64,000 nt of DNA from Gammaproteobacteria bacterium (lineage in GTDB: Bacteria > Pseudomonadota > Gammaproteobacteria > Ga0077554 > Ga007554). The notes below the pieces were generated by a model that had not been told where the DNA came from, searched no databases, and saw nothing but the letters and a program-made list of their open reading frames with translations. The stretch spans positions 1-64,000 of the forward strand of contig JAHFRW010000010.1 of the NCBI GenBank assembly GCA_023266055.1. The letters run 5' to 3'. This document shows positions 20,479 to 39,543 of the stretch, piece after piece. Within the stretch, counting starts at the first letter, position 1, and the number at the start of each line of letters is the position of its first letter. The position numbers and the translations under genes were made by a program.

Positions 20479-21204
20479 TTACTGTTCCGGAACGGGTGTC
20501 ACCCGAATGGGCGCAGGTTGTTTTGATAGCGGTTTATCGACATCCGGGCTGTTACGATCTGTCCACTCTCTGCCTTTACGCGCCATAAACTCGGCTTCTT
20601 CCCTGGGCAACGGACCCCGCGCCAGAATACCTTCCCACTCCCACATCGCCGCACGTGCCTTACGCACGTGGGGATCCTCGGGAGGCGACAGATGTACGTA
20701 AGTGCGCATGGCACCTAATGCACCCTGAAAATCGCCCCGCTGCTCCAGCGCAACTCCCAACCCCCAGTAAGCATTCGACTGATAAGGTCGCAACGTGGTT
20801 GCCTTGTCAAAAAAATTCACCGCCTCTTCATAACGCTCAAGACCCAGCAAGGCATATCCCATATTGACATGCGCATCCACCAGATTGGGCGAGAGTTGCA
20901 GCACACGCTGCAATGCCGTAATGGCGTGCTCGTATTGCTTGGCATGCAGCATTACCACCGCCTGCTCAAAACGCGTTTTTATTTGCGCCATGCGCACTTG
21001 CTGGGAGTGGCCCTTAGGATCCTTGGCAGGATCAATCACGGCCTGCGGCACAGGCGGTGGTGGCACAAATATCGGATTGTGCATCACGCCCACCAGCATC
21101 GCCACCATGCCCAGCACCAACGCCAATGAAATAAACGAGGTTGACTTTGATGTATCCGACACTAGGCCTGGCGATACATGGGGTTGCGTCAATGCTGTGC
21201 TCAT
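20479..21204 (-). CDS. TPR-repeat protein with N-terminal membrane anchor (241 aa)
   Basis: A single transmembrane helix near residues 25-45 (FISLALVLGMVAMLVGVM) is followed by a Pro-rich stretch. Three TPR units follow: YEHAITALQRVLQLSPNLVDAHVNMGYALL, its next repeat about GLERYEEAVNFFDKATTL, and GDFQGALGAMRTYVHLSP. It overlaps the CcsA gene by 4 bp (ATGA). In System I, the CcmI/CcmH TPR domain presents apocytochrome to the haem ligase. By analogy, this protein could hold apocytochromes for the adjacent ResB/CcsA. That is inference from position and fold. Confidence 0.75.
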   Translation of the reverse strand: MSTALTQPHVSPGLVSDTSKSTSFISLALVLGMVAMLVGVMHNPIFVPPPPVPQAVIDPAKDPKGHSQQVRMAQIKTRFEQAVVMLHAKQYEHAITALQRVLQLSPNLVDAHVNMGYALLGLERYEEAVNFFDKATTLRPYQSNAYWGLGVALEQRGDFQGALGAMRTYVHLSPPEDPHVRKARAAMWEWEGILARGPLPREEAEFMARKGREWTDRNSPDVDKPLSKQPAPIRVTPVPEQ

Positions 21205-22073
21205 ACCACACCTTTGTGTGCAGCTTCGCTGTAAAAAGGTGTACCAAAGTACGTGATAAAAGCAAAAACAAATACGGCAATAATAGCAATGGCGCCCACA
21301 CGAATTGGAATGCGGTAGGTAAGCCGCGCATGAATGCTGGCACCCAATAGAAGCCAGTTAAGAAAAGAAGATGTTTCCAGCGCATCCCATGCCCAATAGC
21401 GCCCCCAGGCATCCTGCGCCCATACCGCACCCGCGGTAAGCATTAAACTGTGAAAAATGAACGCCAGCAACATGAAACGCCACGCCAGCGCATCCAGCAC
21501 TTCATCGGCAGGCACATGACGAAACCATGATGCAAATCGCTGCGTATTACGCAGTAATATCACCCCAGCCAAGCCGGTGCCCACCAGACAGAAGGACAGA
21601 AAAATCTTTCCCAAACCTACATGCGCCCATAACCAGTCATTGTGATAAGTGGGTGGCAGCGCGGTATCCACGGGCTGCAATGCCAACACCCAGCCACCCA
21701 GCACCCACATCATGGGTAATGCCACCACCGCGCTGGGACGCAACAACGGCACTCGCCAGTACACCACGGCAAACACCAGGCCCAGGCTCCACAATTGACT
21801 CATCAGCAGTTCAAACAAATTAACAAAAGGGCCATGACCAAGACGCATCCAGCGCTCGGCAATCGCGATGGCAATCAGGGCCACTCCCATGGACACCATG
21901 AGCAGTACAAATTTTTCATGGGTGCGCACCACCGCCATTGAGCCCACCGTGGCGACTTGTGCTCGCAGGATACCCATGACTGCGGCCACCGTGGCCAGTA
22001 CATACGCCGTCAGCCCAGCCCATAACCAGGGCAATTCTGTGGCGCGACTGATTACACCTGTCATGTCATTCAT
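21201..22073 (-). CDS. ccsA: Cytochrome c assembly protein CcsA/ResC (290 aa)
   Basis: A polytopic membrane protein (about eight helices) of the haem-handling protein family. The tryptophan-rich WWD-type segment is visible as WGRYWAWDALETSSFLNWLL about residue 225, with flanking His residues (e.g. FHSLMLT, SIHARLT). With ResB it forms the System II synthetase that exports haem and ligates it to CxxCH motifs. The start overlaps the ResB stop as ATGA. Placement directly after an 11-haem cytochrome suggests a dedicated copy for this cluster. Confidence 0.9.
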   Translation of the reverse strand: MNDMTGVISRATELPWLWAGLTAYVLATVAAVMGILRAQVATVGSMAVVRTHEKFVLLMVSMGVALIAIAIAERWMRLGHGPFVNLFELLMSQLWSLGLVFAVVYWRVPLLRPSAVVALPMMWVLGGWVLALQPVDTALPPTYHNDWLWAHVGLGKIFLSFCLVGTGLAGVILLRNTQRFASWFRHVPADEVLDALAWRFMLLAFIFHSLMLTAGAVWAQDAWGRYWAWDALETSSFLNWLLLGASIHARLTYRIPIRVGAIAIIAVFVFAFITYFGTPFYSEAAHKGVV

Positions 22074-23146
22074 AAAAACCTCCCATCGGTCGTTTCCGGC
22101 ATCTTCTGCAATCGCCCTATCGACCCAGCGGGCGACCCAGCAGCGTGTGAAGATGGCACGCGGACACCCACCTTAAGCCAGAAATGCGTTGCCAAACCCG
22201 TAATCGCTATCAATGCTGCGCCAAACAACCAGTGCAGGGTAGGATCATAAAATACCTTGTACCCCATCCAGGTAGTCAATCGGTCATAGCGCAGGTTACC
22301 GCCCGGCAGTTGCACGTTTTGTCCCGGCTCAAGCTCAACTCGCTGCTCGCCTGTATTCACTACCAGAACTCCGGTCGCCGTTTTTCCATTCAACACCCAC
22401 GCCGCATCTTCACGCAAGCCGGTCTTTAAGCGCAACCAGAACTTGATCTCCTGACCATTCGGTGGCGTCCAACTGCTGTCCTGCTTGTACTCAAACAACG
22501 GGTAGGGCGGCATATGTATGGTGCCACTAATCGCCTCGCCCTGCTCAGGAATCCATGTCAATATTGGTGCAAACCCTTTATTAAAGGTCGTGTAAAAACG
22601 ATAGCCTTCCAGGATCAGGGGACGATCGTCTCCTACCACTTTGGTTTGCCAACCCTGCCCACCACCCGATGCATTTGCCTGACCGTCTGGTATCAAAACC
22701 TGGCTATGGGTCAAACCACGCACCATGCCAGAAGAATAATCCACGGTAAATGATCCCTGCACAAAGGCCAGCTGCTGCAATGCGCCGGAATGTAACGGGC
22801 CTTTTTCCAGGTTGGTCAGATCGGAGGGTGAAAAAGGAGTGCCTTCGGTAATTTCCAGTTGCGCGTCGAAATGTGTCAGGCGCCCGACGCCTGCAAGCAC
22901 AATAATCGCTAGCAGACCCAGATGGAACACCAGCAATCCACCACGGCGGTTGATACGAGGATTGGTGGCAATAGCCGCCAGCAGGTTAACTGCCAGAAAG
23001 GCCAGTGGCACAACCAGCACCCAGACCGGCGTCTCTGCCGGATTATCGTAACTGAGCGCCGCGCCAATGGCCAGCAGGAACATCCCCACCAACGCCAGTC
23101 GTGTAGAGCCCAAACCGCGACCCATATTCATCATGCGGTGGGTCAT
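22070..23146 (-). CDS. resB: Cytochrome c biogenesis protein ResB/Ccs1 (358 aa)
   Basis: Helices near residues 15-55 (LGSTRLALVGMFLLAIGAAL; VLVVPLAFLAVNLLAAIA), a third about 70-90 (GLLVFHLGLLAIIVLAG), then a long periplasmic domain and a last helix near 310-330 (LHWLFGAALIAITGLATHFWL). This is the ResB plan: three N-terminal helices, a soluble domain and a C-terminal helix. It is shorter than many ResB proteins (about 450 residues) but resembles the compact form found beside multihaem cytochrome genes. The start overlaps the cytochrome stop by 4 bp. Confidence 0.85.
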   Translation of the reverse strand: MTHRMMNMGRGLGSTRLALVGMFLLAIGAALSYDNPAETPVWVLVVPLAFLAVNLLAAIATNPRINRRGGLLVFHLGLLAIIVLAGVGRLTHFDAQLEITEGTPFSPSDLTNLEKGPLHSGALQQLAFVQGSFTVDYSSGMVRGLTHSQVLIPDGQANASGGGQGWQTKVVGDDRPLILEGYRFYTTFNKGFAPILTWIPEQGEAISGTIHMPPYPLFEYKQDSSWTPPNGQEIKFWLRLKTGLREDAAWVLNGKTATGVLVVNTGEQRVELEPGQNVQLPGGNLRYDRLTTWMGYKVFYDPTLHWLFGAALIAITGLATHFWLKVGVRVPSSHAAGSPAGSIGRLQKMPETTDGRFL

Positions 23147-25805: not shown

Positions 25806-26984
25806 TCAATGCTTGCCCAGATATTGAAACACTACGACACGTCCGTTGAACATATCTGCCACATAAATGCGGTCACGCTGATCTCCCCACACACCTGCCG
25901 GCAATACAAACTGGCCTGTGCCGCTCCCCCCACCACCTATTGGCAATAAAAATTCACCCTGTGAATCAAATACCAGCAAATGATCATAGTAGGATTCTAC
26001 GACATAAATATTACCCGCCGCGTCGGCCGTGACACCTTTCGGCCGTACCAGATCACCCACGAACAAACCGCGTCGACCAAATACCTGCAATACCTTTGCG
26101 GCTAAGCCCATGGGCGAGGTCACCGCCAACGTCTGCGCCGCGCCTGAATCAGGCGCGGCGGCCGGGTCCATCATGGCCACGGCATCCACCGCCAGCACCT
26201 GAATACGCGCATTCAAGGTATCCGCAACGTACAGTTTACCATCTGCAAATGAAAGATGGGTGGGTGAATTAAATTCACCCGGCACCTCACTCCGCTGCCC
26301 ACTGCCCAACGTCGCCAGCACATTGCCGGCATCATCAAACACCCTGATCTGGTGCAAATGTGAATCCGCCACATAGACACGACCGTGCAGGGCGTCCCGT
26401 GCCAGCCCGGTGGGCCGCTTGAGCAGGCCTTTGCCAAAGCTCCCTACCGGCACCCCGGCGCTATCAAGACGAAACACCTGACCCAGCGAAGCATCGGTAA
26501 CCAGCACCTCTCCGTTCGCTCCCATCGCAATGCCGATGGGCATCTCAAAGCGGAGATTTTGCTCGGCCATCTCCCACACCTGGAGACTGCCTGCCTTTTC
26601 ATCAAATACATATACTGCCTGGCGACTGACATCGGTCACGTAAATTCTGCCGTTATTGTCCACCATACCGGCCTGTGGCCGCTGCAATATTACCGCCTGA
26701 TTTTTTTCCGAAAGCAATCCCACCAGCCATTTCAGGGCTTTTAAACCTGAGGCAACAATCCCACTTTCGTTGCGCTGGATGTTCTCTTCGCCCGTCAACT
26801 CACCTACATAACGATAACGCGGTATTTCGGGGGCCGGTGGCCACACCGTCTGCTGAGCACCCGGCACCTCATAGCGTAGGGTAGAATGGGTCTGCGCACA
26901 ACCAGACAACAATCCCGGCAGCAGCATGACGCCCATCAGCCCCCACACCCATCTCAAACCCGTACCGTGGTGTAGCCGAATCAC
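25806..26984 (-). CDS. NHL-repeat lipoprotein (392 aa)
   Basis: The GTG start at 26984 has AAAGGA upstream. The signal ends LLPGLLSGC, a lipobox with Cys near residue 29. From about residue 100 come six-bladed NHL-type repeats: GRIYVTDVSRQAVYVFD, GEVLVTDASLGQVFRLD, GRVYVADSHLHQIRVFD, GKLYVADTLNARIQVL, GNIYVVESYYDHLLVFD, DRIYVADMFNGRVVVF. Secreted NHL propellers are often found beside multihaem cytochrome and outer-membrane barrel genes and may act as docking or scaffold proteins. It is 11 bp upstream of the 11-haem gene. Confidence 0.88.
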   Translation of the reverse strand: MIRLHHGTGLRWVWGLMGVMLLPGLLSGCAQTHSTLRYEVPGAQQTVWPPAPEIPRYRYVGELTGEENIQRNESGIVASGLKALKWLVGLLSEKNQAVILQRPQAGMVDNNGRIYVTDVSRQAVYVFDEKAGSLQVWEMAEQNLRFEMPIGIAMGANGEVLVTDASLGQVFRLDSAGVPVGSFGKGLLKRPTGLARDALHGRVYVADSHLHQIRVFDDAGNVLATLGSGQRSEVPGEFNSPTHLSFADGKLYVADTLNARIQVLAVDAVAMMDPAAAPDSGAAQTLAVTSPMGLAAKVLQVFGRRGLFVGDLVRPKGVTADAAGNIYVVESYYDHLLVFDSQGEFLLPIGGGGSGTGQFVLPAGVWGDQRDRIYVADMFNGRVVVFQYLGKH

Positions 26985-26996
26985 GTCAAATCCTTT

Positions 26997-28076
26997 TTAA
27001 TTCCTGCCACCAGCAGCACCTGACATCACACGCAACACCTGCACGCGACCATTCAGACTATCTGCCACGTACAACTGGCCTTCATCAAACCACAAATCGG
27101 TAATATAACGAAAATCACCCAATCCTGAGCCTGTCATGCCCACTCGTCCCAGCAAGCGGCCTTCGCCATAAATCTTGATCGTGTTGTCACTGAAGTCACT
27201 GACGTATACCCGACCCTCATTATCCACCGCAATCGCCGTGGGAAACGTGACGTCTCCTTGTGGCATGGAGTAACGGTACTTGCCGTCTTCTGCCAGCACC
27301 TGAATGCGCTGACCAAAGCGCGCTGTCACATAATAACCATCCACGCCCGCTGCCATCGCGGTAATATTCAAAAACTGACCGGCATCACTGCCCCGGCCGC
27401 CGCCGGACGCAACCAGATTACCAAAACTGTCAAACGCCAGAATATGATCATACACCCCATCGGCCACCAGCACACGACCACTGGCCTCATCCACGCTCAC
27501 CGCCACGGGCCGGGCAAGATTCAGAGTATTACTATACGTTCTGATTAAACGACCGTGCCGATCAAACTGCAGGACACGACTGCCCATGGGATCAGCGATA
27601 TAAAACGACAAATCACGCGCCACATAAAGATCCGTGGCTTCGCCTGCCAGCACACCGCGCAAGCTCATCACCACCTCAAGACTGCCCATGATGCGGTTAT
27701 ACTTAAACAGAATATCCTGCCCCGCATCAATTACAAACACATCATTGCCCCGCACGGACACCGCCACCGGGCGAATAAATTGCATGTACCTGACACCCGT
27801 GAGCGCGTTACCCTGTGGGCCACCACGAATAATTTCCAGCGGTACCAGAATTTGTGAAGCGTCATCCTGCCGCGTAAACACTGAAGGATTGACGAGCACC
27901 CCATCCGAAGATGCCGTGGCCGGACTGGAAGATGCGGCGGGCGCATTGATTTGCGACGCAGGGGCCGGTTGCTTTTTGCCCAGCAGGGAGCACCCTCCCA
28001 ACAAGAGAGTGTCGGCCAGAACAACGGCCAGAACGATTAACGGAAACCGGCGGTTTGCCGAGGAACGGAGTGACAT
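26997..28076 (-). CDS. NHL-repeat lipoprotein (359 aa)
   Basis: A paralogue of its neighbour. The ATG at 28076 (MSLRSSAN...) gives a lipoprotein signal ending LADTLLLGGC. Repeats include NDVFVIDAGQDILFKYN, LSFYIADPMGSRVLQFD, GRVLVADGVYDHILAFD, GRVYVSDFSDNTIKIYG and GQLYVADSLNGRVQVL. The start lies inside the 3' end of the 3-haem cytochrome gene (about 40-bp overlap), and the gene ends 12 bp before the next NHL gene. A pair of lipid-anchored propellers is consistent with a heterodimeric platform at the outer membrane. This is inference. Confidence 0.85.
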   Translation of the reverse strand: MSLRSSANRRFPLIVLAVVLADTLLLGGCSLLGKKQPAPASQINAPAASSSPATASSDGVLVNPSVFTRQDDASQILVPLEIIRGGPQGNALTGVRYMQFIRPVAVSVRGNDVFVIDAGQDILFKYNRIMGSLEVVMSLRGVLAGEATDLYVARDLSFYIADPMGSRVLQFDRHGRLIRTYSNTLNLARPVAVSVDEASGRVLVADGVYDHILAFDSFGNLVASGGGRGSDAGQFLNITAMAAGVDGYYVTARFGQRIQVLAEDGKYRYSMPQGDVTFPTAIAVDNEGRVYVSDFSDNTIKIYGEGRLLGRVGMTGSGLGDFRYITDLWFDEGQLYVADSLNGRVQVLRVMSGAAGGRN

Positions 28077-28690
28077 CGACCACAATTCTTGGTTGGCGCA
28101 AAAGCGACTTTGCCGTGGCACACGCCACAATAATTACCCTGGATAATCGCAGCCATGTTCACTGGATTAGCCCCCTTCTGCGGCAAAAAGATCAGCGGAT
28201 GACAATTGGCGCACGTCAACCATTCCGTGTGCTGGCGGTGCGGAAAGCGCACATTGGGCATCGAACCAGTGTTTGTAAAGATCACATCAAAATCCACCGG
28301 AAACATCTGATCTTCACCGTTCAAACCCTTACGCGGATCAATCAACCCCTGATCCAGCGCCTGCACCCAATCCGTCTGCCCCTTGGCGTCACGCGGAAAA
28401 CTGCCCAAGGCCTCGACCGGCTCCTGAAAGACACTGATCGCAGAATTGGTAGGATCACGAATGCCGTCTTCGGCGAGCGGTACCACATCACCTTGCGTCT
28501 GAAAATGCCTACCCTTCGACCAGATCAATTCGTCGGCCATCGCAGTACTGGTCATGGCCGCACCTGTCACCCAGCACAACATTGCCATGATGACACCCAA
28601 CCACCGGGCGCCATACCCCCCACCCATCCCCATACCTGTACGAAGAGGCATAAAGTGACGATCCAACCGGAGACACGTGTTATCGCTCAT
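28037..28690 (-). CDS. Trihaem c7-type cytochrome (217 aa)
   Basis: ATG at 28690 with TCTGGAG upstream. The signal peptide (WLGVIMAMLCWVTGAAM... AMA-DE) is preceded by an unusually long N-region of about 30 residues. The c7-like domain is C-terminal, with haem motifs CANCH, CGVCH and CGRCH, and extra axial His in FPHRQHTEW. The sequence around the haems (PQKGAN...NM.AI...CGVCHGKV) is shared with the 30388-31131 protein, so the two are paralogues. Likely a periplasmic electron shuttle. Confidence 0.88.
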   Translation of the reverse strand: MSDNTCLRLDRHFMPLRTGMGMGGGYGARWLGVIMAMLCWVTGAAMTSTAMADELIWSKGRHFQTQGDVVPLAEDGIRDPTNSAISVFQEPVEALGSFPRDAKGQTDWVQALDQGLIDPRKGLNGEDQMFPVDFDVIFTNTGSMPNVRFPHRQHTEWLTCANCHPLIFLPQKGANPVNMAAIIQGNYCGVCHGKVAFAPTKNCGRCHSVPRQTAGFR

Positions 28691-28804
28691 AGATACTCCA
28701 GACCCGCGCACTATCCCACCTCAGAGAATTTCTGAACCTTGAAAAGGACTGTATTCTGGCCCATAACTCCCCACATCATTTAGAGATTTACACCTCTACA
28801 AAAA

Positions 28805-30151
28805 TTAATTCACGCCCGCAATCATCAGTGCGCGCTGTAAATACGACGTGGCTTCCTGCAGGGTATTGATGGCGCCCACATAATCACCCTTTCCCGCCAG
28901 CTGCGCCGCTTCCACATTCAGCCCTTGACTCTTTTTCTCTAATTCAGCCATTTTATCAACCGTGATGGCCGGTGGCTTTTTCTGATCCAGCGCCAACGGA
29001 ATCAATTCTTCATAGCTTTTATAGCGAGCCACTTCATACTCGTACTCAGCAGCCGGTGTCGCAAAGTTTTTATCGTACACAACGGTTTCATTATCCAGTA
29101 ACGCACCCAGTGCACCCGTCACCATACGTTGCGCATTAGCCAGAATTTTATTCGCCTCATCATAACGCCCGGCATCACCATGTCCCTTGGCCTGGCTCAT
29201 CAAATCCTGGAATTTTTTTTCATCCAGCGCGGCAGCCGGTTTCTTTTTTCCTGCCAGACGCTCGCTATGCTGCTTGTAAGATGACTCAAATGTCTTGGTC
29301 GCATCCAGCAACTCAGCATAGCGGAACTTGGGGTCAAGCCCTGTGTCCTGAGTGTCGCTCGGCACCAGGCGCACTGCGGCAGTCACCAGACGTATCGACT
29401 CATCCACTTCGTCCTGCGCCTTGGCAAGGTTATTCGTCCCCAGTGTCACGCGCGCCGCATCCAGATGCGTACGTGCACTGGCCAGCATTTCCTTGGCCCG
29501 CACATGGCTGCTGGCACTGACACGCTGCGCACCTTTCGATGTATTCATCAGCATGTTGGCATACTCAATTTTTTGCTTGACCTGCATCTCCGTCACTACG
29601 GCATGGTCCGTCTCTGGATGCCCCTCTGCAGCGGCACGCGATGTCACGGGGGCGACCGCAGCACCCTCCAGCGTAGACGCTTTACCCTTGTCAACAATCC
29701 TGAGCATACCCCCCATGCTTCTGTGATTACGACACTGGTAATACACGACATCCGGCGTCGTCGCCGAGGGCGTGAATGTCACCATGCCACGAAAGGTAAA
29801 CTGCCCCTCCACTCCATCAGTCACCGTACTACCACCCTGCCCCACCGCGCTGGTCGAAAAATAAAAATCGTGTTGTGGCCCGGTATCGATGTTAAAGGTA
29901 TATTCCACACCCCGCGTCAACACCAGCGTCTTCCCTTGCACACCGTCCAGCGCCAGACCAATTTTATGACCCTGCCCGAAAAAGGGATGGGTTTGATCTT
30001 TGGTGACAGCGGTGATGGAAAACACCCGCTGCTCTGTACTTTTACTATCTGTGGGAGCACCCGCGGCTACAGATGCAGCACTGTAAACCCCCGCAAAACC
30101 CAACGAAATTATCTGGAATAAAAACCAAATCTGTCGACCCATAAGCTTCAT
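28805..30151 (-). CDS. Cupredoxin-domain protein with long helical C-terminal region (448 aa)
   Basis: Signal peptide, then a beta-sandwich of about 110 residues. It carries GPQHDFYF (first His ligand) and YYQCRNHRSMGGM near residue 150 (Cys, His and Met ligands in type-1 copper order). The remaining 290 residues are alpha-helical repeats rich in Ala, Lys and Asp (YANMLMNTSKGAQRVSAS; YEELIPLALDQKK; AAQLAGKGDYVGAINTLQEA), resembling TPR or four-helix modules. The blue-copper site implies single-electron transfer in the periplasm. Joining it to a long helical module inside a cytochrome operon is unusual. ATG at 30151 chosen for its AGGG spacing; the ATG at 30157 is possible. Confidence 0.8.
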   Translation of the reverse strand: MKLMGRQIWFLFQIISLGFAGVYSAASVAAGAPTDSKSTEQRVFSITAVTKDQTHPFFGQGHKIGLALDGVQGKTLVLTRGVEYTFNIDTGPQHDFYFSTSAVGQGGSTVTDGVEGQFTFRGMVTFTPSATTPDVVYYQCRNHRSMGGMLRIVDKGKASTLEGAAVAPVTSRAAAEGHPETDHAVVTEMQVKQKIEYANMLMNTSKGAQRVSASSHVRAKEMLASARTHLDAARVTLGTNNLAKAQDEVDESIRLVTAAVRLVPSDTQDTGLDPKFRYAELLDATKTFESSYKQHSERLAGKKKPAAALDEKKFQDLMSQAKGHGDAGRYDEANKILANAQRMVTGALGALLDNETVVYDKNFATPAAEYEYEVARYKSYEELIPLALDQKKPPAITVDKMAELEKKSQGLNVEAAQLAGKGDYVGAINTLQEATSYLQRALMIAGVN

Positions 30152-30387
30152 GATCATTCCCTAAAAATATCAATTAACGCAGCCGCGCAAGGACGTGCCA
30201 CAATAAAGTCAGCCCGCTGTATTCTCTCCACCTTGCCGGGACGTATTTCCTGGTGGCGCGTCCCGATTATTTATTTCCTGTGCAGACAACCGTGTCCATC
30301 ATTATTTGCCAGGATTATTATGTTTGATACCCAAAGGACGTCCCACACGGAGACGCCCTTTGCAGCACTTGCCTCATGCCTAATGAC
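30152..30387. promoter_or_regulatory. Intergenic region within the cytochrome cluster
   Basis: About 235 bp without a gene, the widest gap inside the cluster. It holds a GC-rich inverted repeat at about 30333-30362 (AAAGGxCGTC / GAxACGCCCTTT) that could attenuate or end transcription from the upstream genes, though no T-tract follows it on the minus strand. A promoter for the cupredoxin gene may also be here. Confidence 0.35.
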
Positions 30388-31131
30388 TTATTTCCATGGA
30401 TTCTTGAGTGTTGCCTCGCTCAATGGCGGCTTCCAGTCATCCGGTTTCGGCTTGGAATGACACTTGCGACACGACTTGGTTGTAATCGGGAACGATACCT
30501 TGCCATGACATACGCCACATTTCTGTCCCAGCAGGATGGCAGACATGTTGATCTGGTTCGCGCCTTTTTGCGGAATAAAGATCGCGGGGTGGCAGTTTGA
30601 ACAAAACAGCCATTCGGTATGCTGGCGATGCGGGAACACCACATCCGGCACTGACGCTTTTACTGGACGGACAATATCCAGATCCATGACAAACGGCTCG
30701 GCATCGGGATCTTCCCTTTCCCAGCGCGGGCGGATCTTTTTATCATCGAGGGTTTTCACCCAATCCACACGATTACCGTATTCGGTAGGTGGCAGCCCTT
30801 CAAAAGCCGGCTTGGGCGCCGCAAGAATATGCGTGGCCTCGTTTTGTGGATCACGCAGACCATCTTCAGCCGGGGGCAAATGGATGCCCTTGGGCTTCTT
30901 CAGATTACGATTGAAGCTGTTAATATCGTCCACCTGCGCAATATGAATAACCTGCACATCGGACTGGGCCATTTCATCAACCGGCTTGTATTCTGGCGCG
31001 TAAGACAAATCCTTGACCGGGACCGAACCATCGGGACGCGGTGCAACCTGGGGTTGGGCGCTGCACGCCGACCCCACCAGAAACAGCGAGAACGCGCCGA
31101 CCATAAAGAGTGTTTTTTTATGCAAATTCAT
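30388..31131 (-). CDS. Trihaem c7-type cytochrome lipoprotein (247 aa)
   Basis: MNLHKKTLFMVGAFSLFLVGSAC gives a lipobox with Cys near residue 23, so this is a lipid-anchored cytochrome. After about 140 residues of linker the c7 domain follows, with CSNCH, CGVCH and CRKCH and the axial pair FPHRQHTEW. It is a clear paralogue of the 28037-28690 protein over both linker and haem domain (EDGLRDPQNEA versus EDGIRDPTNSA). GGAGGGG precedes the ATG. It ends with a proline-rich tail. The lipid anchor suits a carrier held at the outer membrane next to the barrel. Confidence 0.88.
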   Translation of the reverse strand: MNLHKKTLFMVGAFSLFLVGSACSAQPQVAPRPDGSVPVKDLSYAPEYKPVDEMAQSDVQVIHIAQVDDINSFNRNLKKPKGIHLPPAEDGLRDPQNEATHILAAPKPAFEGLPPTEYGNRVDWVKTLDDKKIRPRWEREDPDAEPFVMDLDIVRPVKASVPDVVFPHRQHTEWLFCSNCHPAIFIPQKGANQINMSAILLGQKCGVCHGKVSFPITTKSCRKCHSKPKPDDWKPPLSEATLKNPWK

Positions 31132-31163: not shown

Positions 31164-31625
31164 TTACTTTTTAGGGGCGGCGGCAGGCGCAGGGGCAGCA
31201 GAACCTGTGAGTGGCTGATACGGCGGAGCCACCAAAGTCTGTACTGTGCTGCCATGAAAATGGGTAGGGGTTCCGGGCACGCCCGAATGGCACATACCGC
31301 AGTTTTCCACCGACCAGGCAATTTCACCGTTATGGCAGGCACCACAGAATTTGCCGTCAATGATTTTGGCCATGGTAATTTTGTTACCGCCGGCCTTGAA
31401 CTGGAAGCCCAAATCAGCATGACACACCTTGCAACGAAAACGTATGCGGTGGAACCAATGCGAAAACACCGCCGGACGCATACCCGCCGCATCGGCGTAG
31501 TTATTGATGACCACGTCTCCGTATTCAGCTTGCGCTGGCGCGGGTGCTACCAACATGGCCGCCCAGGCAACCACCCCCAGAGCAAGCGCCCTCCACGTAA
31601 TACGACCTTTCATTATCGGTAACAT
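31164..31625 (-). CDS. Trihaem c7-type cytochrome (153 aa)
   Basis: The ATG at 31625 has GGGGAGAG upstream; an in-frame GTG at 31631 is less likely. Signal peptide to PAPAQA. Three motifs CKVCH, CGACH and CGMCH occur in about 70 residues. The Ala/Pro-rich tail (GSAAPAPAAAPKK) could be a flexible linker. It is less similar to the other two c7 proteins than they are to each other. Lies 33 bp upstream of the lipoprotein cytochrome, downstream of the barrel gene. Confidence 0.87.
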   Translation of the reverse strand: MLPIMKGRITWRALALGVVAWAAMLVAPAPAQAEYGDVVINNYADAAGMRPAVFSHWFHRIRFRCKVCHADLGFQFKAGGNKITMAKIIDGKFCGACHNGEIAWSVENCGMCHSGVPGTPTHFHGSTVQTLVAPPYQPLTGSAAPAPAAAPKK

Positions 31626-31795
31626 CAGCACTCTCCCCTCGTTTTAAAAATAATCCTGACTCCATGCACCACCACGATCGAACCTCAATCACGATGATTC
31701 ACATTTTAACCTGTACACACAACAACCACACCGTCCAAACCAACGATCATCACCCCGGTCAACGGTGCGCCCCTGACCGCTCTTTGCACTACGCA

Positions 31796-33667
31796 TCAGA
31801 AACGCCGCGCGATACGCGCCATTACCAGACTTGAATTTTGCCCATCAATCTGTATTAAACGCAAGCTTAAACTAGTATCTAACAACCCAATCATATAATC
31901 CAGCCGGTTATCCCACTCGGCACGATCGATCCCCGCTTCCGCCGCGGCCCGGGATACAAACAAGTTTGACAGAAAACGCAGATTCGTCACACCAAATATA
32001 TTAGAATGCTGATAATCCACCCGCCCTGTCGCCGTCGCGACATCGGTGCCCACACCCAACTGCGGAAATTCCTGACGCACGTACTGTACTGTCAGATTAC
32101 CCGACAAAAAACTGGAACGATTCAACGGCTGGACACGCAAAACCTGAAAATTCACCAGTTGCTGCTGATCCGTGGTATCGGTCAGCGCACGTGAGTCCGA
32201 AAGCGTCATCTGTACTGTAGAATTCCCCCCGCCCCCCGCCGCCTGATTCCAGGCCACAGTCCCAGTATGATCCAGACGCGCATTAGAAGCACCAATGCCG
32301 GCATATTGACGTGTCGCCAGCGACCCTTGATGATCCTGGTAAAGCGTAACTGCTTCATCGTTAATGCGGTAAGCACCATTGATCGACTGTCCCAGACTGA
32401 CGTTCAACGAAGAAATTTCGCTTAAAAACCAGGTTTTTTGCCCGTTATGAGACAGCGAGGACGTCACTGTCTGGCGAGCCGTCTCTTCGCCTGACTGATT
32501 ATCCAGACTACCGGTGGCAAACCAGCGGTATATAAACCCTGATTTTTCATACAAATCAGATTGATACAACAGTCCTGCCTGCTGGCGGGCCAATTGGGTT
32601 TCGGAACCGTTGCTTTGCGTATTGGTAAATGCCGCGCTGGCATCAAAACGCCATTTCCTGCTTAACTGATAAAAAAATCCACCCGAGGCACTGACCGACA
32701 GCGAATCACTGGACGCCACCGGCGCATTACCCTGCAGGTCATAGACACGTACCCCGCCACTCATCGACCAGGGCCGGGCGTCCGGGCGCCAGAAAAAGAA
32801 GCTGGAAGCCTGCATAATATCCGTGGTGCTACTGCCATAGGTGGAACTGGCGCTGGTCACACGGAACGAACGATCAAAAGTATAATAACTGGCTTTGTTG
32901 TCGATGCGAAACGAAGGCGAAGGCAAATAAAAATGGCTCAGGTCAAAAATAACACTCTCATTACGCAACTTGCTCAAAGAGTGATCTGTTGTGCCCTGAC
33001 TGAGCTTCACCAATACATTTTGCTTGCCACGCCGCACATCCGCTTCGGCACCCAGCAACACGTCATCATAACTACCATCACTCGCCGAACTCCAGCTCGA
33101 TGAATCGTAACGCACCATAAAACGATCATTTTGATCATTGAGGTAAGACTGCCGCAATTCCAAGCGTGTGGTATCAAACTCAATGTCCGTAAACATCACT
33201 GGCGCACTCGAAATGCGGGTTGCATCAATACGGCTATTGCTTGCCAGATACCGCAACCCGAATGGCGCCTTGCTCTGTGGCAACACATTAAGATTGAATT
33301 CGCCCGTCACGATCGTTGCTTCATTATTCACAAGACCACCATCCGCCATGCTGGCGCTGGAACCCCCGCTAAACTCCGTAGTGTCCCTGGCAAATGTAAT
33401 CCCGCCCTCAACCGTAGCAAGCCATGGCTGCCATAAGTAAGAACTGGCATGCGTATTGGCCAGCCATTGATAACTGGTACTATCTGCATTGCTGGTACCG
33501 CTCAACCAGCGGTAGCTGTACCCCACGCTGCCCGACACCTCAACCGGCCCCAACGAAACGGCGAACACATGCACGGGCCACGCCAATGCCAGCAGCACCA
33601 GCATCGCCATGACCATATCAGATCGACTCCCCGATCGACTTACCGTGCTGTCAATATTAAAATTCAT
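31796..33667 (-). CDS. Outer-membrane beta-barrel, putative porin of a porin-cytochrome conduit (623 aa)
   Basis: A cleavable signal (MVMAMLVLLALAWPVHVFA) is followed by about 590 residues of alternating polar/hydrophobic strands with Ser/Thr/Asn-rich turns and aromatic girdles. The chain ends ARRF, the terminal aromatic recognised by the Bam machinery. There is no CxxCH and no plug domain. Its length and its place between a 4-haem cytochrome/isomerase and 3-haem cytochromes match the barrel component of porin-cytochrome complexes (MtrB/PioB/OmbB role), though family membership is not evident by eye. It overlaps the isomerase stop by one base. Confidence 0.8.
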   Translation of the reverse strand: MNFNIDSTVSRSGSRSDMVMAMLVLLALAWPVHVFAVSLGPVEVSGSVGYSYRWLSGTSNADSTSYQWLANTHASSYLWQPWLATVEGGITFARDTTEFSGGSSASMADGGLVNNEATIVTGEFNLNVLPQSKAPFGLRYLASNSRIDATRISSAPVMFTDIEFDTTRLELRQSYLNDQNDRFMVRYDSSSWSSASDGSYDDVLLGAEADVRRGKQNVLVKLSQGTTDHSLSKLRNESVIFDLSHFYLPSPSFRIDNKASYYTFDRSFRVTSASSTYGSSTTDIMQASSFFFWRPDARPWSMSGGVRVYDLQGNAPVASSDSLSVSASGGFFYQLSRKWRFDASAAFTNTQSNGSETQLARQQAGLLYQSDLYEKSGFIYRWFATGSLDNQSGEETARQTVTSSLSHNGQKTWFLSEISSLNVSLGQSINGAYRINDEAVTLYQDHQGSLATRQYAGIGASNARLDHTGTVAWNQAAGGGGNSTVQMTLSDSRALTDTTDQQQLVNFQVLRVQPLNRSSFLSGNLTVQYVRQEFPQLGVGTDVATATGRVDYQHSNIFGVTNLRFLSNLFVSRAAAEAGIDRAEWDNRLDYMIGLLDTSLSLRLIQIDGQNSSLVMARIARRF

Positions 33668-34692
33668 TAATTATTATCATTGTCCTTGATGACGACGGGA
33701 GTGCGTGCACGCAACCCCTCAATCAACCCCTGCCACGCTGCATCAGCCTGCTCACGCATCAATAATTCACGCGCCCGTGGCTCAGCGGCCACGGCATCGT
33801 TCAACACTGCCGCAGCACGCTCACCCAGCCGCAACACCACCACCCCCTGCAGCAACATCACGGGATCCGAAATGTCCCCTGCCACCATTTTATCTAGCAC
33901 CTGCTGCGCCTCAGCGGCCAGCATGCCGTGATGCACATACCCCAAATCCCCGCCCCTGGCGGCTGAACTGTCAGCAGAATGCAAGCGCGCCAACTCCGCA
34001 AAATCCGCACCGTTGCGCAACTTGCCGACCAGCTGGGCGGCCTCCTGCTCGGCCACTTTCCACATTTGCGCAGATGCCGACGGCGCCACTTTCAGCAAAA
34101 TCAACGAAACACGCACACGCTCGGGCGTGGTGAATTGATCCAGATGATCCTGATAATACTGACGCACTTCCGCCATGCCTGGCACAGGCACCTGCTTCAC
34201 CTGCGCTTCAAGCTGTGCCAGCTTATCTTCGTCTTCCAGGCGGCCACGCAACAACGGCAGGGCACGCTCCCTGTCCGCACGCCATTCTGACGTACCCGAC
34301 AGACGTTGCTCAATCTGGGCCAGTTTGGCATCCACCGCCACCGTATTCGCCACAATACCGCGACGCCTGATTTCCTGCCGCAACAGCACTCGATCAACCA
34401 GACGTTGCGTTACCTCAAGACGATACGCGGTCAACTGCTCCGGTTGCGGCGCGCCGTGAAAAAACCTGCGGCGCATGCCCTCATGCAGGGCCGCCTGGAA
34501 CTCCTCGCGGGAAACACTCTCTTCCCCCACCATTGCAAAAGGCGTTGATATTTCAATGGAAGACGACTGAACTGCACCAACCGCCGATTCAGTCATTGCA
34601 TCAGGCGCCGCGTATACCGCCGGCACCAGTGCCACGGCTAGCAGCGCCACCCCTCCCTGCCAGGCACCCAAACGCCACCCTCTATTTGGCAT
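33667..34692 (-). CDS. Parvulin-type peptidyl-prolyl isomerase, SurA/PpiC-like, periplasmic (341 aa)
   Basis: A signal peptide (LLAVALVPAVYA) is followed by an N-terminal helical chaperone domain with a SurA_N-like segment (AYRLEVTQRLVDRVLLRQEI) and a parvulin domain from about residue 195: RVRVSLILLKV, then GADFAELARLHSADSSA and RGGDLGYVHHGML. It overlaps the 4-haem cytochrome gene by 11 bp and the barrel gene by 1 bp, so all three are probably made together. The likely job is folding of the barrel or of cluster cytochromes in the periplasm. Confidence 0.87.
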   Translation of the reverse strand: MPNRGWRLGAWQGGVALLAVALVPAVYAAPDAMTESAVGAVQSSSIEISTPFAMVGEESVSREEFQAALHEGMRRRFFHGAPQPEQLTAYRLEVTQRLVDRVLLRQEIRRRGIVANTVAVDAKLAQIEQRLSGTSEWRADRERALPLLRGRLEDEDKLAQLEAQVKQVPVPGMAEVRQYYQDHLDQFTTPERVRVSLILLKVAPSASAQMWKVAEQEAAQLVGKLRNGADFAELARLHSADSSAARGGDLGYVHHGMLAAEAQQVLDKMVAGDISDPVMLLQGVVVLRLGERAAAVLNDAVAAEPRARELLMREQADAAWQGLIEGLRARTPVVIKDNDNN

Positions 34693-35515
34693 GGCAGGTC
34701 AAGCATACCGCACTGCCCTTCGGATCTACGCGCAGAAAAGTAGGGTTATAATCAACATGCGGATCATGGCACGACGCGCATTCCACATAGGGCTGTGGCT
34801 CGCCGGCAAACCGGCCACGCGTGCCCACGCGGGTATACAGCTTCATATCCGTCTTCTCAAACGCCAGCGAGCCCTCCACCGGCGTGTTCACCCACCATAC
34901 GCGCTCAGTGCCCACAATGGCGGTACTGGCCTGATTAAAATCCTTGTCCGCACCCGGACCGGAAGGGTTGGAGGACGAATACCCCCCTCCCGCAAATTGA
35001 ATACCGACAGGATGGTCATTGGTCAAATCCTTGCCAAGATTGGTAATCACACTGGGCGGCGCAATGCGGCCACCTACTGTAGAGGCCTGACCACTCCAGC
35101 GACCCGTGCTGAAACCTTGCACAATACGTCCCGATCCTGGCTCATTGAGCAATGAATCCATTGCCTGGGTACCATCGTGGCACGACAGGCAGGCCAGCGA
35201 TACCGACCCCACCTGCTCCACATGAGCATCCAGCGTGGTGGTACCCATCTGATCGTAGGTCTGGAACCCATTAGGATCAAGATTACGGTTCCACAGCGGC
35301 ACAGCGGCCGCCTCATTGGCACCATGAGGGGTATGGCAGAACACGCAGATCTCGCGCGTACCGCTGAACTGACTGGCCGCGTTAATGCCGGTACTGCCCA
35401 GATTGTGCTTGGTATTAAAAATTCCGGCCAAAGCCCCCCCCGCCACCAATAATAGCAGCACAGCAATAATCAGATTTTTTCCGGAGGCCGTGTGGCTACG
35501 GTACTTTATTGTCAT
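34682..35515 (-). CDS. Tetrahaem c-type cytochrome (277 aa)
   Basis: AGGGGTGGGAAG precedes the ATG at 35515. The signal ends about GGALA-GIF. Four motifs: CVFCH, CLSCH, CASCH, CLTCH. The core NTKHN...FCHTPHGAN...PLWNRNL...CLSCHDGT repeats the N-terminal haem module of the 11-haem protein. DLTNDHPVG and ECASCHDPH are also shared. It is therefore likely a shortened paralogue. First gene of the cluster, following a promoter region at 35516-35640. Confidence 0.9.
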   Translation of the reverse strand: MTIKYRSHTASGKNLIIAVLLLLVAGGALAGIFNTKHNLGSTGINAASQFSGTREICVFCHTPHGANEAAAVPLWNRNLDPNGFQTYDQMGTTTLDAHVEQVGSVSLACLSCHDGTQAMDSLLNEPGSGRIVQGFSTGRWSGQASTVGGRIAPPSVITNLGKDLTNDHPVGIQFAGGGYSSSNPSGPGADKDFNQASTAIVGTERVWWVNTPVEGSLAFEKTDMKLYTRVGTRGRFAGEPQPYVECASCHDPHVDYNPTFLRVDPKGSAVCLTCHAK

Positions 35516-35743: not shown

Positions 35744-36811
35744 TTACTTTGACGAGAAGGTATGGTTAACACCCACAGAGAAGGATGAAACATCCTTGCC
35801 TGTTACGCCACCCACACCCTCAACCGTGTACTTGGCCGCAGAGTCGTTGCTGACCATGGTGTACAAAGCATAGGCTTCCGTGGTCTTGGACAGGGCATAG
35901 GACGCGCCCAATGCAAACTGGGTCGCACCGGTATCCGCCACACCACCCGTCTTGTCAGCCACGGCGAGCGCCGCTTTCAAGGTGATGGCATCCATCTTGT
36001 GCGCTACGTTCAGGTACCAGGCATCACGGTCATTGTTTGTACCGCCCTTGTCCGCACTTTCCCAGATGGCGCCAATGGTCGTCGCCCCACCCAAGGTAAA
36101 GGCACCGCCAATCTTCCATGCCGTAGCATCATCTGTTCCACCGGGAACAGTTGTAAAGGCGTTCAACGACTCATAAGCAGCCGTCAGGTAAAGTGGGCCC
36201 TGCGTGTAAGAACCGCTCAAGCTGTAGGCATCCTGGTCACTTGCGGCCGTGGTCAAGGGCAACTCATCGCTACCGCCAGGACGAGTGCTATAGGCTATCG
36301 CGCCCTTGAAACCACTGATGTCCGGCGATCTGTACTGAATGGAATTGTCAAACCGGCCACCGAAGGTAGCCTTGTCTGAATTAACCGCGCTTATAATTCC
36401 GTTATAATCACCACGGGTATCAACAAAGATATCCATTCCCTGGGTTGAATTCTTGTAGGGTGTATTGATACGCCCCGCCAGCACCGTGCCGAAACCACCG
36501 CTCAAACCCACGTAAGCATCACGTTTCTTGGAGCCCCAGGTGCTGGTATCAAACGCCACTTCCTGTTCAAACTGCCACATCGCTTTCAGGCCACCGCCCA
36601 GATCTTCATCACCCTTGAAGCCTAGACGTGAAGCATTGCTGCTAATAGCAATTGCCTTGTCTTCATATCCTGCTGCGGCGTCATCGTTGCTACTGAAATC
36701 CACTGACATACGGGCCTGACCGTATACTTCAACACCCGCCTGCGCCAGCACAGGCACCATGAATCCTGCACTTGCCACTATTACCGCCAATTTTTTATGC
36801 ATATTACTCAT
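35744..36811 (-). CDS. General porin 1 (355 aa)
   Basis: Signal peptide to VLAQA, then GVEVYGQARMSVDF, a typical first strand of 16-strand trimeric gram-negative porins (porin_4 type). It ends GVNHTFSSK: the penultimate strand aromatic is present, but the last residue is Lys, not Phe. AMWQFEQEVAFDTSTW and RDAYVGLSGGFGTVLAGR are porin landmarks (constriction loop 3 follows). Start chosen for the GGGGAG spacing; an ATG at 36802 is an alternative. Its last 150 or so codons are identical to porin 2 at DNA level. Confidence 0.87.
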   Translation of the reverse strand: MSNMHKKLAVIVASAGFMVPVLAQAGVEVYGQARMSVDFSSNDDAAAGYEDKAIAISSNASRLGFKGDEDLGGGLKAMWQFEQEVAFDTSTWGSKKRDAYVGLSGGFGTVLAGRINTPYKNSTQGMDIFVDTRGDYNGIISAVNSDKATFGGRFDNSIQYRSPDISGFKGAIAYSTRPGGSDELPLTTAASDQDAYSLSGSYTQGPLYLTAAYESLNAFTTVPGGTDDATAWKIGGAFTLGGATTIGAIWESADKGGTNNDRDAWYLNVAHKMDAITLKAALAVADKTGGVADTGATQFALGASYALSKTTEAYALYTMVSNDSAAKYTVEGVGGVTGKDVSSFSVGVNHTFSSK

Positions 36812-36902
36812 CTCTCCACTCCCCAATTAAGCGTTCATCTCCTAAAATATCTTGCAAAAACAGCATACCAACACTTTATGACAACTCGGTGACAACCACC
36901 AT

Positions 36903-36943
36903 AAAAAAACGGGCAGCCCTTCATAAAGACAAGGCTGCCCGTC
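36903..36943 (-). terminator. Rho-independent terminator of porin 2
   Basis: On the minus strand: GACGGGCAGCCTT, loop, AAGGGCTGCCCGT followed by seven T, about 70 bp downstream of the porin 2 stop. It is similar in design to the porin 1 terminator. Confidence 0.88.
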
Positions 36944-37010
36944 TATACCTCCCCCATACCAACGGGGAAAGCGCACCACAAGCGGGGTTACTGCGCCCCC
37001 GCTCTATGCT

Positions 37011-38072
37011 TTACTTGGATGAAAAAGTATGATTAACACCCACAGAGAAAGATGAAACATCCTTGCCTGTTACGCCACCCACACCCTCAACCGTGTACTT
37101 GGCCGCAGAGTCGTTGCTGACCATGGTGTACAAAGCATAGGCTTCCGTGGTCTTGGACAGGGCATAGGACGCGCCCAATGCAAACTGGGTCGCACCGGTA
37201 TCCGCCACACCACCCGTCTTGTCAGCCACGGCGAGCGCCGCTTTCAAGGTGATGGCATCCATCTTGTGCGCTACGTTCAGGTACCAGGCATCACGGTCAT
37301 TGTTTGTACCGCCCTTGTCCGCACTTTCCCAGATGGCGCCAATGGTCGTCGCCCCACCCAAGGTAAAGGCACCGCCAATCTTCCATGCCGTAGCATCATC
37401 TGTTCCACCGGGAACAGTTGTAAAGGCGTTCAACGACTCATAAGCAGCCGTCAGGTAAAGTGGGCCCTGCGTGTAAGAACCGCTCAAGCTGTAGGCATCC
37501 TGGTCACTTGCCGTGGTTGTCATGGGCAGATCATCACTGGAGTAATTGGTGCTATAGGCTATCGCGCCCTTGAAACCACTGATGTCCGGCGATCTGTACT
37601 GAATGGAATTGTCAAACCGGTTGTTAAACGTGGCGCTGTTTGAGTTAACCACACCCATAATTCCATTGTAATCGCCGCGGGTGCTGGCAAACACATCCAT
37701 TGGCTGGGTTGTATTCTTGTAAGGTGTATTGATCCGTCCAGCCAACACCGTACCAAATCCACCGCCTAATCCGATGAACGAATCACGCTTCTTGGAACCC
37801 CAGGTGCTGGTATCAAACGCCACTTCCTGTTCAAACTGCCACATTGCCTTCAAGCCATTGCCCAAATCTTCATCACCCTTGAAGCCAAGACGTGACTTAT
37901 TGCTGGTGATAGAAATTGCCTTGTCTTCAAACCCTGCTGCAGTGTCATCGTTGTTGCTGAAATCCAGGGACATGCGTGCCTGACCGTAAACTTCCACACC
38001 CGCCTGCGCAGCTAACGGTGCGGCCAGAACACCTGCTACTGCCAAAGCAATTAACTTCTTTTGCATTTTCAT
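37011..38072 (-). CDS. General porin 2 (353 aa)
   Basis: Opens MKMQKKLIALAVAGVLAAP, signal to AAQA. Porin plan as in its neighbours, with SFIGLGGGFGTVLAGR before loop 3. The 5' half differs from porin 1 at scattered sites, whereas from about 37053 to 37511 the two genes appear base-for-base the same. GGGAG precedes the ATG. Followed by its own terminator. Confidence 0.88.
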   Translation of the reverse strand: MKMQKKLIALAVAGVLAAPLAAQAGVEVYGQARMSLDFSNNDDTAAGFEDKAISITSNKSRLGFKGDEDLGNGLKAMWQFEQEVAFDTSTWGSKKRDSFIGLGGGFGTVLAGRINTPYKNTTQPMDVFASTRGDYNGIMGVVNSNSATFNNRFDNSIQYRSPDISGFKGAIAYSTNYSSDDLPMTTTASDQDAYSLSGSYTQGPLYLTAAYESLNAFTTVPGGTDDATAWKIGGAFTLGGATTIGAIWESADKGGTNNDRDAWYLNVAHKMDAITLKAALAVADKTGGVADTGATQFALGASYALSKTTEAYALYTMVSNDSAAKYTVEGVGGVTGKDVSSFSVGVNHTFSSK

Positions 38073-38241
38073 TTGCTCCCTATAAATTTAAGTGCATGTT
38101 AAACAGAAATAAAGCCACAAACATCAGATGGCATGGGGGCAACTTTACAAGGCTGACCCACGAAGATGCAACACCTTTCGTAACGAAAACCACAACCGAC
38201 GCCAAAGTGTAGCAAATATGATACAGCGGGTAAAAATTAAA

Positions 38242-38464
38242 GTGTGTCGCCGTGCTCGCGAACCATTAATTGGGACATCCCCGTCCCAATTAATGACTGC
38301 GCCCGGCAACAAGTACGCCTGCAGCGCCCGGACAGGCCTGTCGTTGTTTCCCCATGTTGTCTATACGGGTGCTCTCGCACTCATTCCGACAACACAGGGA
38401 AACCTCGGCTATCCGGGGCTTGCCCGCCACCGCTCGCTTTCGCGTCGCCCTCCCTGGCGGGCGC
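38242..38464. repeat. Structured repeat element, left copy (inverted partner at 39867-40146)
   Basis: Begins GTGTGTCGCCGTGCTCG and ends CCCTGGCGGGCGC. It folds into at least three hairpins: ATTAATTGGGA/TCCCAATTAAT, a long GTTTCCC...GGGAAAC stem containing GGGTGC/GCACTC, and GCCCGCCA/TGGCGGGC. It starts 14 bp after the stop codon of porin 3. The right copy keeps each hairpin although the stem bases differ. Confidence 0.7.
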
Positions 38465-38478
38465 TTCTGTATCTTCTA

Positions 38479-39543
38479 TTATTTGGATGAGAAGGTGTGG
38501 TTAATGCCCACCGAAAAAGATGAAACGTCTTCACCCAATACACCATTTACGCCATCAAGACTGTATCTGCCAGCAGAGTCATTACCCACCATGGAGTACA
38601 GGGCATACGCCTCGGTGGTCTTGGACAAGGCATACGACCCGCCCAGCGAAAACTGATTAGCCCCGGTATCTGCCACGCCACCAGTTTCGTCCGCCATGGC
38701 ATAGGCAGCCATCAGAGCGATGTCACCCATCTTGTGCTTCACGCTTAGGGTCCAGGCGTCACGATCACCATTTGTAGCGGTGGTACCGCCCATATCCAGA
38801 CTTTCCCAAATGGCGCCGAAGGTGGTGTGGCTCATCAGTGTGTAGCTGCCGCCGATCTTCCAGGCAGAAACATCATCACCGCCCGCACCCAAGGCATTCC
38901 ATGACTCATAACCGGCGGTCACAAAAATAGGGCCGCTGGCGTAAGTGCCGCTCAAGCTGTAGGCATCTTCCTTGCCCTGGGCTGTCGTCATCGGCAGGCT
39001 GTCGCCCGTCGCGGCACTCGGCACAATATACGCCGCCATCGCGCTAAAGCCACTCATGTCCGGTGACGCATACGCCACCGCGTTGTCTGCGCCATTCTCA
39101 TCATTCCAGCCGGTATTCCCATTCAGCGAACCTATAATGGCGTTGTTATCGCCACGGGTGTTGCGGAAGGGATCCAGGCCACTGGTCGCAATGCGGTAAG
39201 GCGTGCCCAACTTGCCCGCCAGAACCGTACCAAAACCGCCGCTCAAACCGATGTAAGAAGCACGACGGCTGTCATTCCAGTTGCCAGTGTCAAAAGCAAC
39301 TCCCTGCTCAAACTGCCACAGAGCCTTCAAGCCACCGCCCAGGTCTTCATCCCCACGGAAACCAAGACGTGAGCGATTGCTGGACACGGCAAGGGCGCTG
39401 TCTTCATTCGTAGCCACTGGATCGTTATTACTGTTGAAATCCAGGGACATACGTGCCTGGCCGTAAATTTCAACGCCCGCCTGTGCGGCTAACGGCGCAG
39501 CCAAAACACCTGCTACTGCTAAAGCAATCAACTTCTTTTGCAT
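38479..39543 (-). CDS. General porin 3 (354 aa)
   Basis: MQKKLIALAVAGVLAAP signal identical to porin 2, then GVEIYGQARMSLDF. More diverged than porins 1 and 2 in loops and C-terminal half, with the same ending (GINHTFSSK). AGGGAG lies 8 bases before the ATG. It is flanked by inverted copies of a structured repeat, the only gene between them. Confidence 0.88.
   Translation of the reverse strand: MQKKLIALAVAGVLAAPLAAQAGVEIYGQARMSLDFNSNNDPVATNEDSALAVSSNRSRLGFRGDEDLGGGLKALWQFEQGVAFDTGNWNDSRRASYIGLSGGFGTVLAGKLGTPYRIATSGLDPFRNTRGDNNAIIGSLNGNTGWNDENGADNAVAYASPDMSGFSAMAAYIVPSAATGDSLPMTTAQGKEDAYSLSGTYASGPIFVTAGYESWNALGAGGDDVSAWKIGGSYTLMSHTTFGAIWESLDMGGTTATNGDRDAWTLSVKHKMGDIALMAAYAMADETGGVADTGANQFSLGGSYALSKTTEAYALYSMVGNDSAGRYSLDGVNGVLGEDVSSFSVGINHTFSSK

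Follow-up and report, generated by a model that had tools for sequence, protein, structure and literature searches.

Electron-uptake models for cathodes and minerals usually show porin–cytochrome conduits as haem-only wires. A gene lying between two triheme cytochrome genes in a gammaproteobacterial contig raises the question of whether copper could take part as well, since a reading of the sequence alone had proposed that it encodes a blue-copper domain fused to a long helical repeat inside a cytochrome operon. We analysed this gene together with its neighbours, its homologues and the predicted structure of its product. The window is the whole stretch of DNA that was analysed, 64,000 nucleotides of contig JAHFRW010000010.1, and all positions refer to it unless another contig is named.

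The window carries a Uet conduit

The known parts of Uet are the tetraheme cytochrome UetA, the peptidyl-prolyl isomerase UetB, the barrel UetC, the triheme cytochromes UetD, UetE and UetG, the NHL proteins UetH and UetI, and the undecaheme cytochrome UetJ (PMC10734462). Homologues of UetA–E and UetG–J are all present, in order, in the window (Table 1), and the cluster is a Uet (undecaheme electron transfer) porin–cytochrome conduit, as known from Tenderiales. The 450-residue protein that gave rise to our question occupies the slot between the triheme cytochromes UetE and UetG. We infer that it is UetF from this position and from the letter left free by the names UetDEG for the trihemes and UetHI for the NHL proteins. 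An identity with PCC3 (He et al. 2017), which combines very large multihaem cytochromes with an inner-membrane b-type protein, was dropped because the cytochromes of the window cluster carry 11, 4 or 3 haems and are accompanied by NHL proteins, the composition of Uet.

The surroundings of the cluster hold several further genes. After the 11-haem gene, ResB, CcsA and a CcmH-like TPR protein (20479-23146, minus strand) make up a cytochrome c maturation set that accompanies many Uet clusters. Three tandem Gram-negative porin genes (35744-39543, minus strand) lie directly upstream of the uet genes. Two of them share a 300-nt 3′ stretch that is 98% identical while differing in their other parts, a pattern suggestive of recent duplication or gene conversion. 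A lysyl-oxidase-like secreted protein is encoded 5 kb upstream of the uet genes (40560-41342, minus strand; PF01186, a usually copper-binding family), and a group II intron reverse transcriptase/maturase fragment lies at 61319-61942 (minus strand).

Table 1 Positions of the Uet cluster genes and of the domains and predicted copper-site codons of UetF in the window
Feature	Position	Strand	Basis or remark
UetA homologue, 4 CXXCH	34682..35515	-	
UetB homologue, PpiC-type peptidyl-prolyl isomerase	33667..34692	-	Pfam
UetC homologue, predicted outer-membrane β-barrel, 623 aa	31796..33667	-	Position and conservation in clusters; no Pfam match
UetD homologue, triheme cytochrome c7	31164..31631	-	TIGR04257
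UetE homologue, triheme cytochrome c7	30388..31131	-	TIGR04257
UetF orthologue, 450 aa	28805..30157	-	ORF; placed between the trihemes UetE and UetG in almost every related cluster
UetF signal peptide, ~residues 1-32	30062..30157	-	Sequence
UetF cupredoxin-like domain PF25489, residues 44-157	29687..30028	-	Pfam, AlphaFold2, Foldseek, alignment
UetF linker, residues 158-189	29591..29686	-	164-185 predicted disordered; pLDDT <50
UetF helical repeat domain, residues 190-450, 3 units x 3 helices	28808..29590	-	AlphaFold2, hhalign
His57 codon, strand 1-2 loop	29987..29989	-	70/72 conserved
His96 codon, predicted first Cu ligand	29870..29872	-	71/72 conserved; near-invariant Asp97 next
Cys142 codon, predicted thiolate ligand	29732..29734	-	72/72 conserved; sole Cys of protein
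His145 codon, predicted Cu ligand	29723..29725	-	72/72 conserved
Met148 codon, predicted axial ligand	29714..29716	-	71/72 conserved; spacing C-x2-H-x2-M
UetG homologue, triheme cytochrome c7	28037..28711	-	TIGR04257
UetH homologue, NHL β-propeller	26997..28130	-	PF01436
UetI homologue, NHL β-propeller lipoprotein	25806..26984	-	PF01436
UetJ homologue, 11-haem cytochrome, 888 aa	23143..25809	-	11 CXXCH
ResB-like cytochrome c biogenesis protein, downstream, same cluster	22070..23146	-	PF05140
CcsA-like cytochrome c assembly protein, downstream, same cluster	21201..22073	-	PF01578

UetF contains a predicted cupredoxin domain

The open reading frame proposed from the sequence was borne out as a 450-residue frame on the minus strand, except at its 5′ end: the earlier extent, 28805-30151, starts at what is now the third codon, which is also an ATG. 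Residues 44-157 match PF25489 (At5g54830-like domain) with 33.9 bits against a cut-off of 27. The Pfam search found no other family above cut-off for this stretch, no NCBIfam model matched it, and a PADLOC search gave no match.

An AlphaFold2 model of full UetF, built with 30 homologues, predicts an eight-stranded β-sandwich for residues 45-155 (pLDDT ~95). Over the whole protein the mean pLDDT was 82 and the pTM 0.36, so that the model does not define how the domains are arranged. Using Foldseek, we obtained rusticyanin as the best structural match in the PDB (E 2e-3, probability 1.00), followed by multicopper oxidases and plastocyanins; matches to these proteins had probabilities of 0.99-1.00 with modest E-values, none below 1e-3, and nearly all of the top 50 were cupredoxins. 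Model and structural matches thus agree on a predicted cupredoxin β-sandwich, the fold of type-1 copper proteins, for residues 44-157. Searching the PDB by sequence returned weak pseudoazurin similarity alone, with the Cys-x2-His motif aligned. Among 72 homologues, 40 have a lipobox followed by a linker of 65-141 residues; the signal peptide of the window UetF is without a lipobox.

A type-1 ligand set is strictly conserved

The order of His96, Cys142, His145 and Met148 is the standard order of type-1 copper ligands. In the AlphaFold2 model, His96 immediately precedes strand 98-101 and Cys142 closes strand 137-142; the loop ahead of the last strand, 150-155, holds both His145 and Met148. Structure prediction, the check that the sequence-only reading had proposed for its type-1-like site, is therefore in its favour: a sandwich is predicted with His/Cys/His and an axial Met at canonical positions, a topology that would cluster the ligands as in type-1 proteins.

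Across 72 distinct homologues reaching down to ~32% identity, the four ligands are kept in 71-72 (Table 1), as is, in 71, Asp97, the residue after His96. The homologues stem for the most part from a contig scan whose search patterns were placed in the helical domain, so the retention of the ligands is not a search artefact. Other Cys, His and Met residues after the signal peptide are variable, bar M202 (0.90) and M403 (0.76) in the helical half. At the level of sequence, conservation of the ligands is far beyond chance.

The ligands named earlier, a His and the Cys-x2-His-x2-Met set, were correct and are kept in homologues. The further Met named with them was not: M151 is kept in 6% and, judged from the alignment, lies outside the predicted copper site. 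A second invariant His, His57, had been missed. The central claim, that a porin–cytochrome operon encodes a cupredoxin-like domain joined to a helical repeat, stands with a full, invariant type-1 ligand set. UetF carries a strictly conserved predicted copper-binding domain, and copper may work beside haem in the conduit.

The helical domain is a three-fold repeat distinct from that of EfeO

A long helical region had been proposed correctly, although its length is 261 residues, arranged as a three-fold repeat, rather than 290. Modelled alone, with AlphaFold2 on 38 sequences including helical-only relatives, the domain had a mean pLDDT of 91.9, and comparison of its repeat units with each other as hhalign profiles gave local probabilities of 86-93%. 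It has no Pfam match above cut-off; YfdX matched weakly in 16 of the 38 helical-domain members, and a PDB search with the helical model gave no convincing match (best E 0.26).

The sequence-only reading took periplasmic cupredoxins to be small single domains as a rule; EfeO, which joins a cupredoxin to a helical M75 domain, is a known exception (PMC9174327). UetF might handle metal as EfeO does, its cupredoxin binding copper or iron and its helices holding iron, and so protect or supply the conduit while carrying no current. Both proteins are periplasmic, with an N-terminal cupredoxin-like and a C-terminal helical domain, and EfeO has helical-only cousins, EfeM, the same split as in UetF (PMC9174327); EfeO was also a weak Foldseek match of the whole UetF model (E 0.011, probability 0.57). 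The helical model alone, however, fails to retrieve EfeO, and UetF has neither an M75 (PF09375) nor a Cupredoxin_1 Pfam match. Its helical half is without a conserved His and so without an HXXE site, HxxE occurring in only 19 of 72 homologues, and membership of the EfeO family, with its M75 domain and HXXE, was rejected. Where EfeO belongs to iron transport (EfeUOB), UetF has another helical family, an intact type-1 ligand set and a place in a cytochrome operon; its linkage is to cytochromes, with no iron permease or DyP peroxidase gene seen nearby. We regard metal handling of the EfeO kind as quite improbable.

The counterpart in Ca. Tenderia is published as a tetratricopeptide-repeat protein

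The genes of Ca. Tenderia electrophaga run from the trihemes Tel_16515 and Tel_16520 through the TPR protein Tel_16525 and the triheme Tel_16530 to the undecaheme Tel_16545 (PMC5371394). Tel_16525 was described solely as a tetratricopeptide-repeat protein and suggested to align cytochromes. It appears to share a transcript with the triheme genes, whose expression at the cathode ranks among the highest, and its peptides were detected; a cupredoxin is mentioned in the Ca. Tenderia text only for a different gene group (PMC5371394). Both clusters have the order A-B-C-D-E-F-G-H-I-J, and locus-tag order gives Tel_16525 the place that UetF has in the window, between the second and third triheme genes. 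A copper domain of Tel_16525 is not mentioned in the Uet literature examined, Eddie et al. 2022, reportedly the paper that defined Uet, aside.

Whereas Tel_16525 was published as a TPR protein, the window UetF consists of a cupredoxin-like domain and a helical repeat in which no TPR family scores above the Pfam cut-off. Some members of the family have TPR matches below threshold, and because the similarity is sub-threshold the published label is loose. One gammaproteobacterial genome (G242) has exactly the Ca. Tenderia gene order, with a copper-type UetF (Cu-UetF), and plausibly represents Ca. Tenderia by gene position.

The fusion is almost confined to Uet

Among 369 sampled Gammaproteobacterial genomes, 32 encode Cu-UetF and all 32 of them have UetJ; nine further genomes of the 369 have UetJ without a detected Cu-UetF. 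PF25489 is named after a plant protein; its Gammaproteobacterial matches, in 14 of 229 genomes, are all UetF proteins of UetJ-bearing genomes, and 19 of 19 diverse cupredoxin domains match it. Because Cu-UetF and PF25489 co-occur with UetJ in the sampled genomes, the cupredoxin–helical fusion is almost confined to Uet. Sought in other conduit clusters, as the sequence-only reading had suggested, the fused architecture proved to be kept in more than 60 homologues at the same operon position.

Some relatives depart from this pattern. The Gallionellaceae MAG BIN13 (L064:8406-11329, L073:10001-11323) encodes three Cu-UetF-like proteins, two of them in tandem, with no other uet genes nearby, and one copy (L073) is without Met148 and His57; mis-binning or a separate use could account for these copies. 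Two genomes (L168, L169) have shortened copies. At L167:9313-10282 (minus strand), two small secreted proteins encoded in tandem have the same cupredoxin-like domain (HPF...YNCxNHxxMNG) and no helical domain; they are possible stand-alone relatives.

Uet lineages with and without the copper domain

Gene order was compared across 75 cluster rows, with genes taken as six-frame ORFs filtered by profile matches, a procedure that may undercount trihemes in a few GC-rich contigs. Clusters of the Cu type (47 rows) have three triheme cytochromes in 47/47 and one Cu-UetF each, bar one frame-broken copy; their order is exactly D-E-CuF-G-H-I in 43, and the remaining four are close variants. Cu-less clusters (28 rows, of which four are contigs met twice, leaving 24 distinct) come from Magnetococcales, Burkholderiales and some Gammaproteobacteria, and have four triheme cytochromes in 19 of the 24. 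In most of them two helical-only UetF genes stand in tandem, commonly in the order D-E-F-F-G-D'-I. Clusters of this kind (L092, L094, L095, L103, L105 and L137-L159) usually have a fourth triheme after UetG, and their UetE often has four CXXCH motifs, not three.

A tree of UetJ (70 rows) requires one change between the Cu-type and Cu-less clusters, with a branch support of 83. In the tree of the helical domain, Cu-UetF groups with the first tandem copy, F1, and not with the second, F2 (support 100 for F2 and 96 for the Cu group). Depending on the root, either Cu-UetF is F1 with an added copper domain or the Cu-less F1 lost its copper domain.

In place of the copper domain, the Cu-less lineage has an additional UetF and, in most cases, a fourth triheme, which supports a relay function of the copper domain. 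With a single evolutionary event behind it, this association of copper with triheme number is no more than suggestive and may be coincidence. Cofactor exchange, in which a copper domain joined to the one scaffold that was retained took the place of a triheme and the second helical scaffold in one Uet lineage, its copper centre performing a step that haems perform in the sister lineage, is a tentative and rather doubtful proposal.

Almost all Uet clusters, in both lineages alike, encode the helical domain, and one lineage is without the copper domain. A copper relay is therefore not essential to Uet in general, and the existence of clusters without it argues against the relay as an obligatory link. 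A scaffold or docking role for the UetF helices fits well. UetF might even be purely a scaffold or assembly factor, with a cupredoxin-like domain that is structural or protein-binding and cycles no electrons in vivo, as the presence of helices in all Uet lineages would allow. The ResB/CcsA cytochrome-assembly pair and the PPIase in the same cluster would agree with this, as would the proposal that Tel_16525 aligns cytochromes (PMC5371394). A drifting, non-functional site, however, would not retain four ligands in 71-72 of 72 homologues down to ~32% identity, and it seems unlikely that scaffolding is the sole function of Cu-UetF.

A putative copper relay on a helical scaffold

Our favoured reading, which we hold to be moderately probable, is that UetF of the Cu-type lineage combines two functions, those of a helical scaffold and of a type-1 copper relay. 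The helical repeat domain would most likely serve as a docking scaffold that aligns the periplasmic trihemes UetD, UetE and UetG, and possibly the 11-haem UetJ. Held ahead of it on a flexible tether, and in many homologues on a lipid anchor, the type-1 (amicyanin/plastocyanin-like) domain would bind copper, take up electrons one at a time from a haem protein of the conduit and pass them to the next. Within the envelope, this redox step would come between the complex in the outer membrane and the chain in the inner membrane. Electron transfer of this kind is known from amicyanin to cytochrome c-551i (PMC12723479) and from rusticyanin to periplasmic cytochromes c (PMC5566968). The invariant ligands with their canonical placement, the structural matches, the constant operon slot, the co-occurrence with UetJ and the cathode expression around Tel_16525 speak for this reading; the modest Foldseek E-values, the undefined arrangement of the domains and the Gallionellaceae copy that lacks Met148 and His57 speak against it.

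If this is true, the conserved copper centre would be a potential checkpoint in the Uet chain of Tenderiales-like bacteria, and electroautotrophy would be predicted to be copper-dependent. The centre would reside in a small soluble domain with a measurable colour and potential. A natural comparison would come from the copper-bearing and the copper-free Uet lineage, in which one conduit is built from two cofactor sets.

Comparison with known type-1 copper proteins

UetF shares its predicted fold, ligand set and ligand order with rusticyanin, plastocyanin and amicyanin. Since rusticyanin is the best Foldseek match and Uet figures among the putative conduits for iron oxidation (PMC10734462, PMC13386937), UetF could be conceived as a rusticyanin-like first acceptor of Fe(II)-derived electrons, whose copper domain meets iron or an outer-membrane oxidase directly. 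The similarity is one of fold only, however, rusticyanin being absent among the PDB sequence matches, and the spacing of the ligand loop is amicyanin-like. A signal peptide or lipid anchor, together with the operon, fits a periplasmic site between haem proteins at least equally, and we consider direct acceptance of electrons from iron very improbable.

The relay that we favour would use a copper loop with the same C-x2-H-x2-M spacing as that of amicyanin, in which the ligands are Cys92, His95 and Met98 (PMC12723479). The position after the first His, Asn or Ser in these known carriers, is Asp in UetF, which also has an extra conserved His elsewhere. In amicyanin and rusticyanin, the residue that follows the first His ligand tunes the redox potential (PMC12723479). 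In contrast to these carriers, the copper domain of UetF is part of a two-domain, often lipid-anchored protein.
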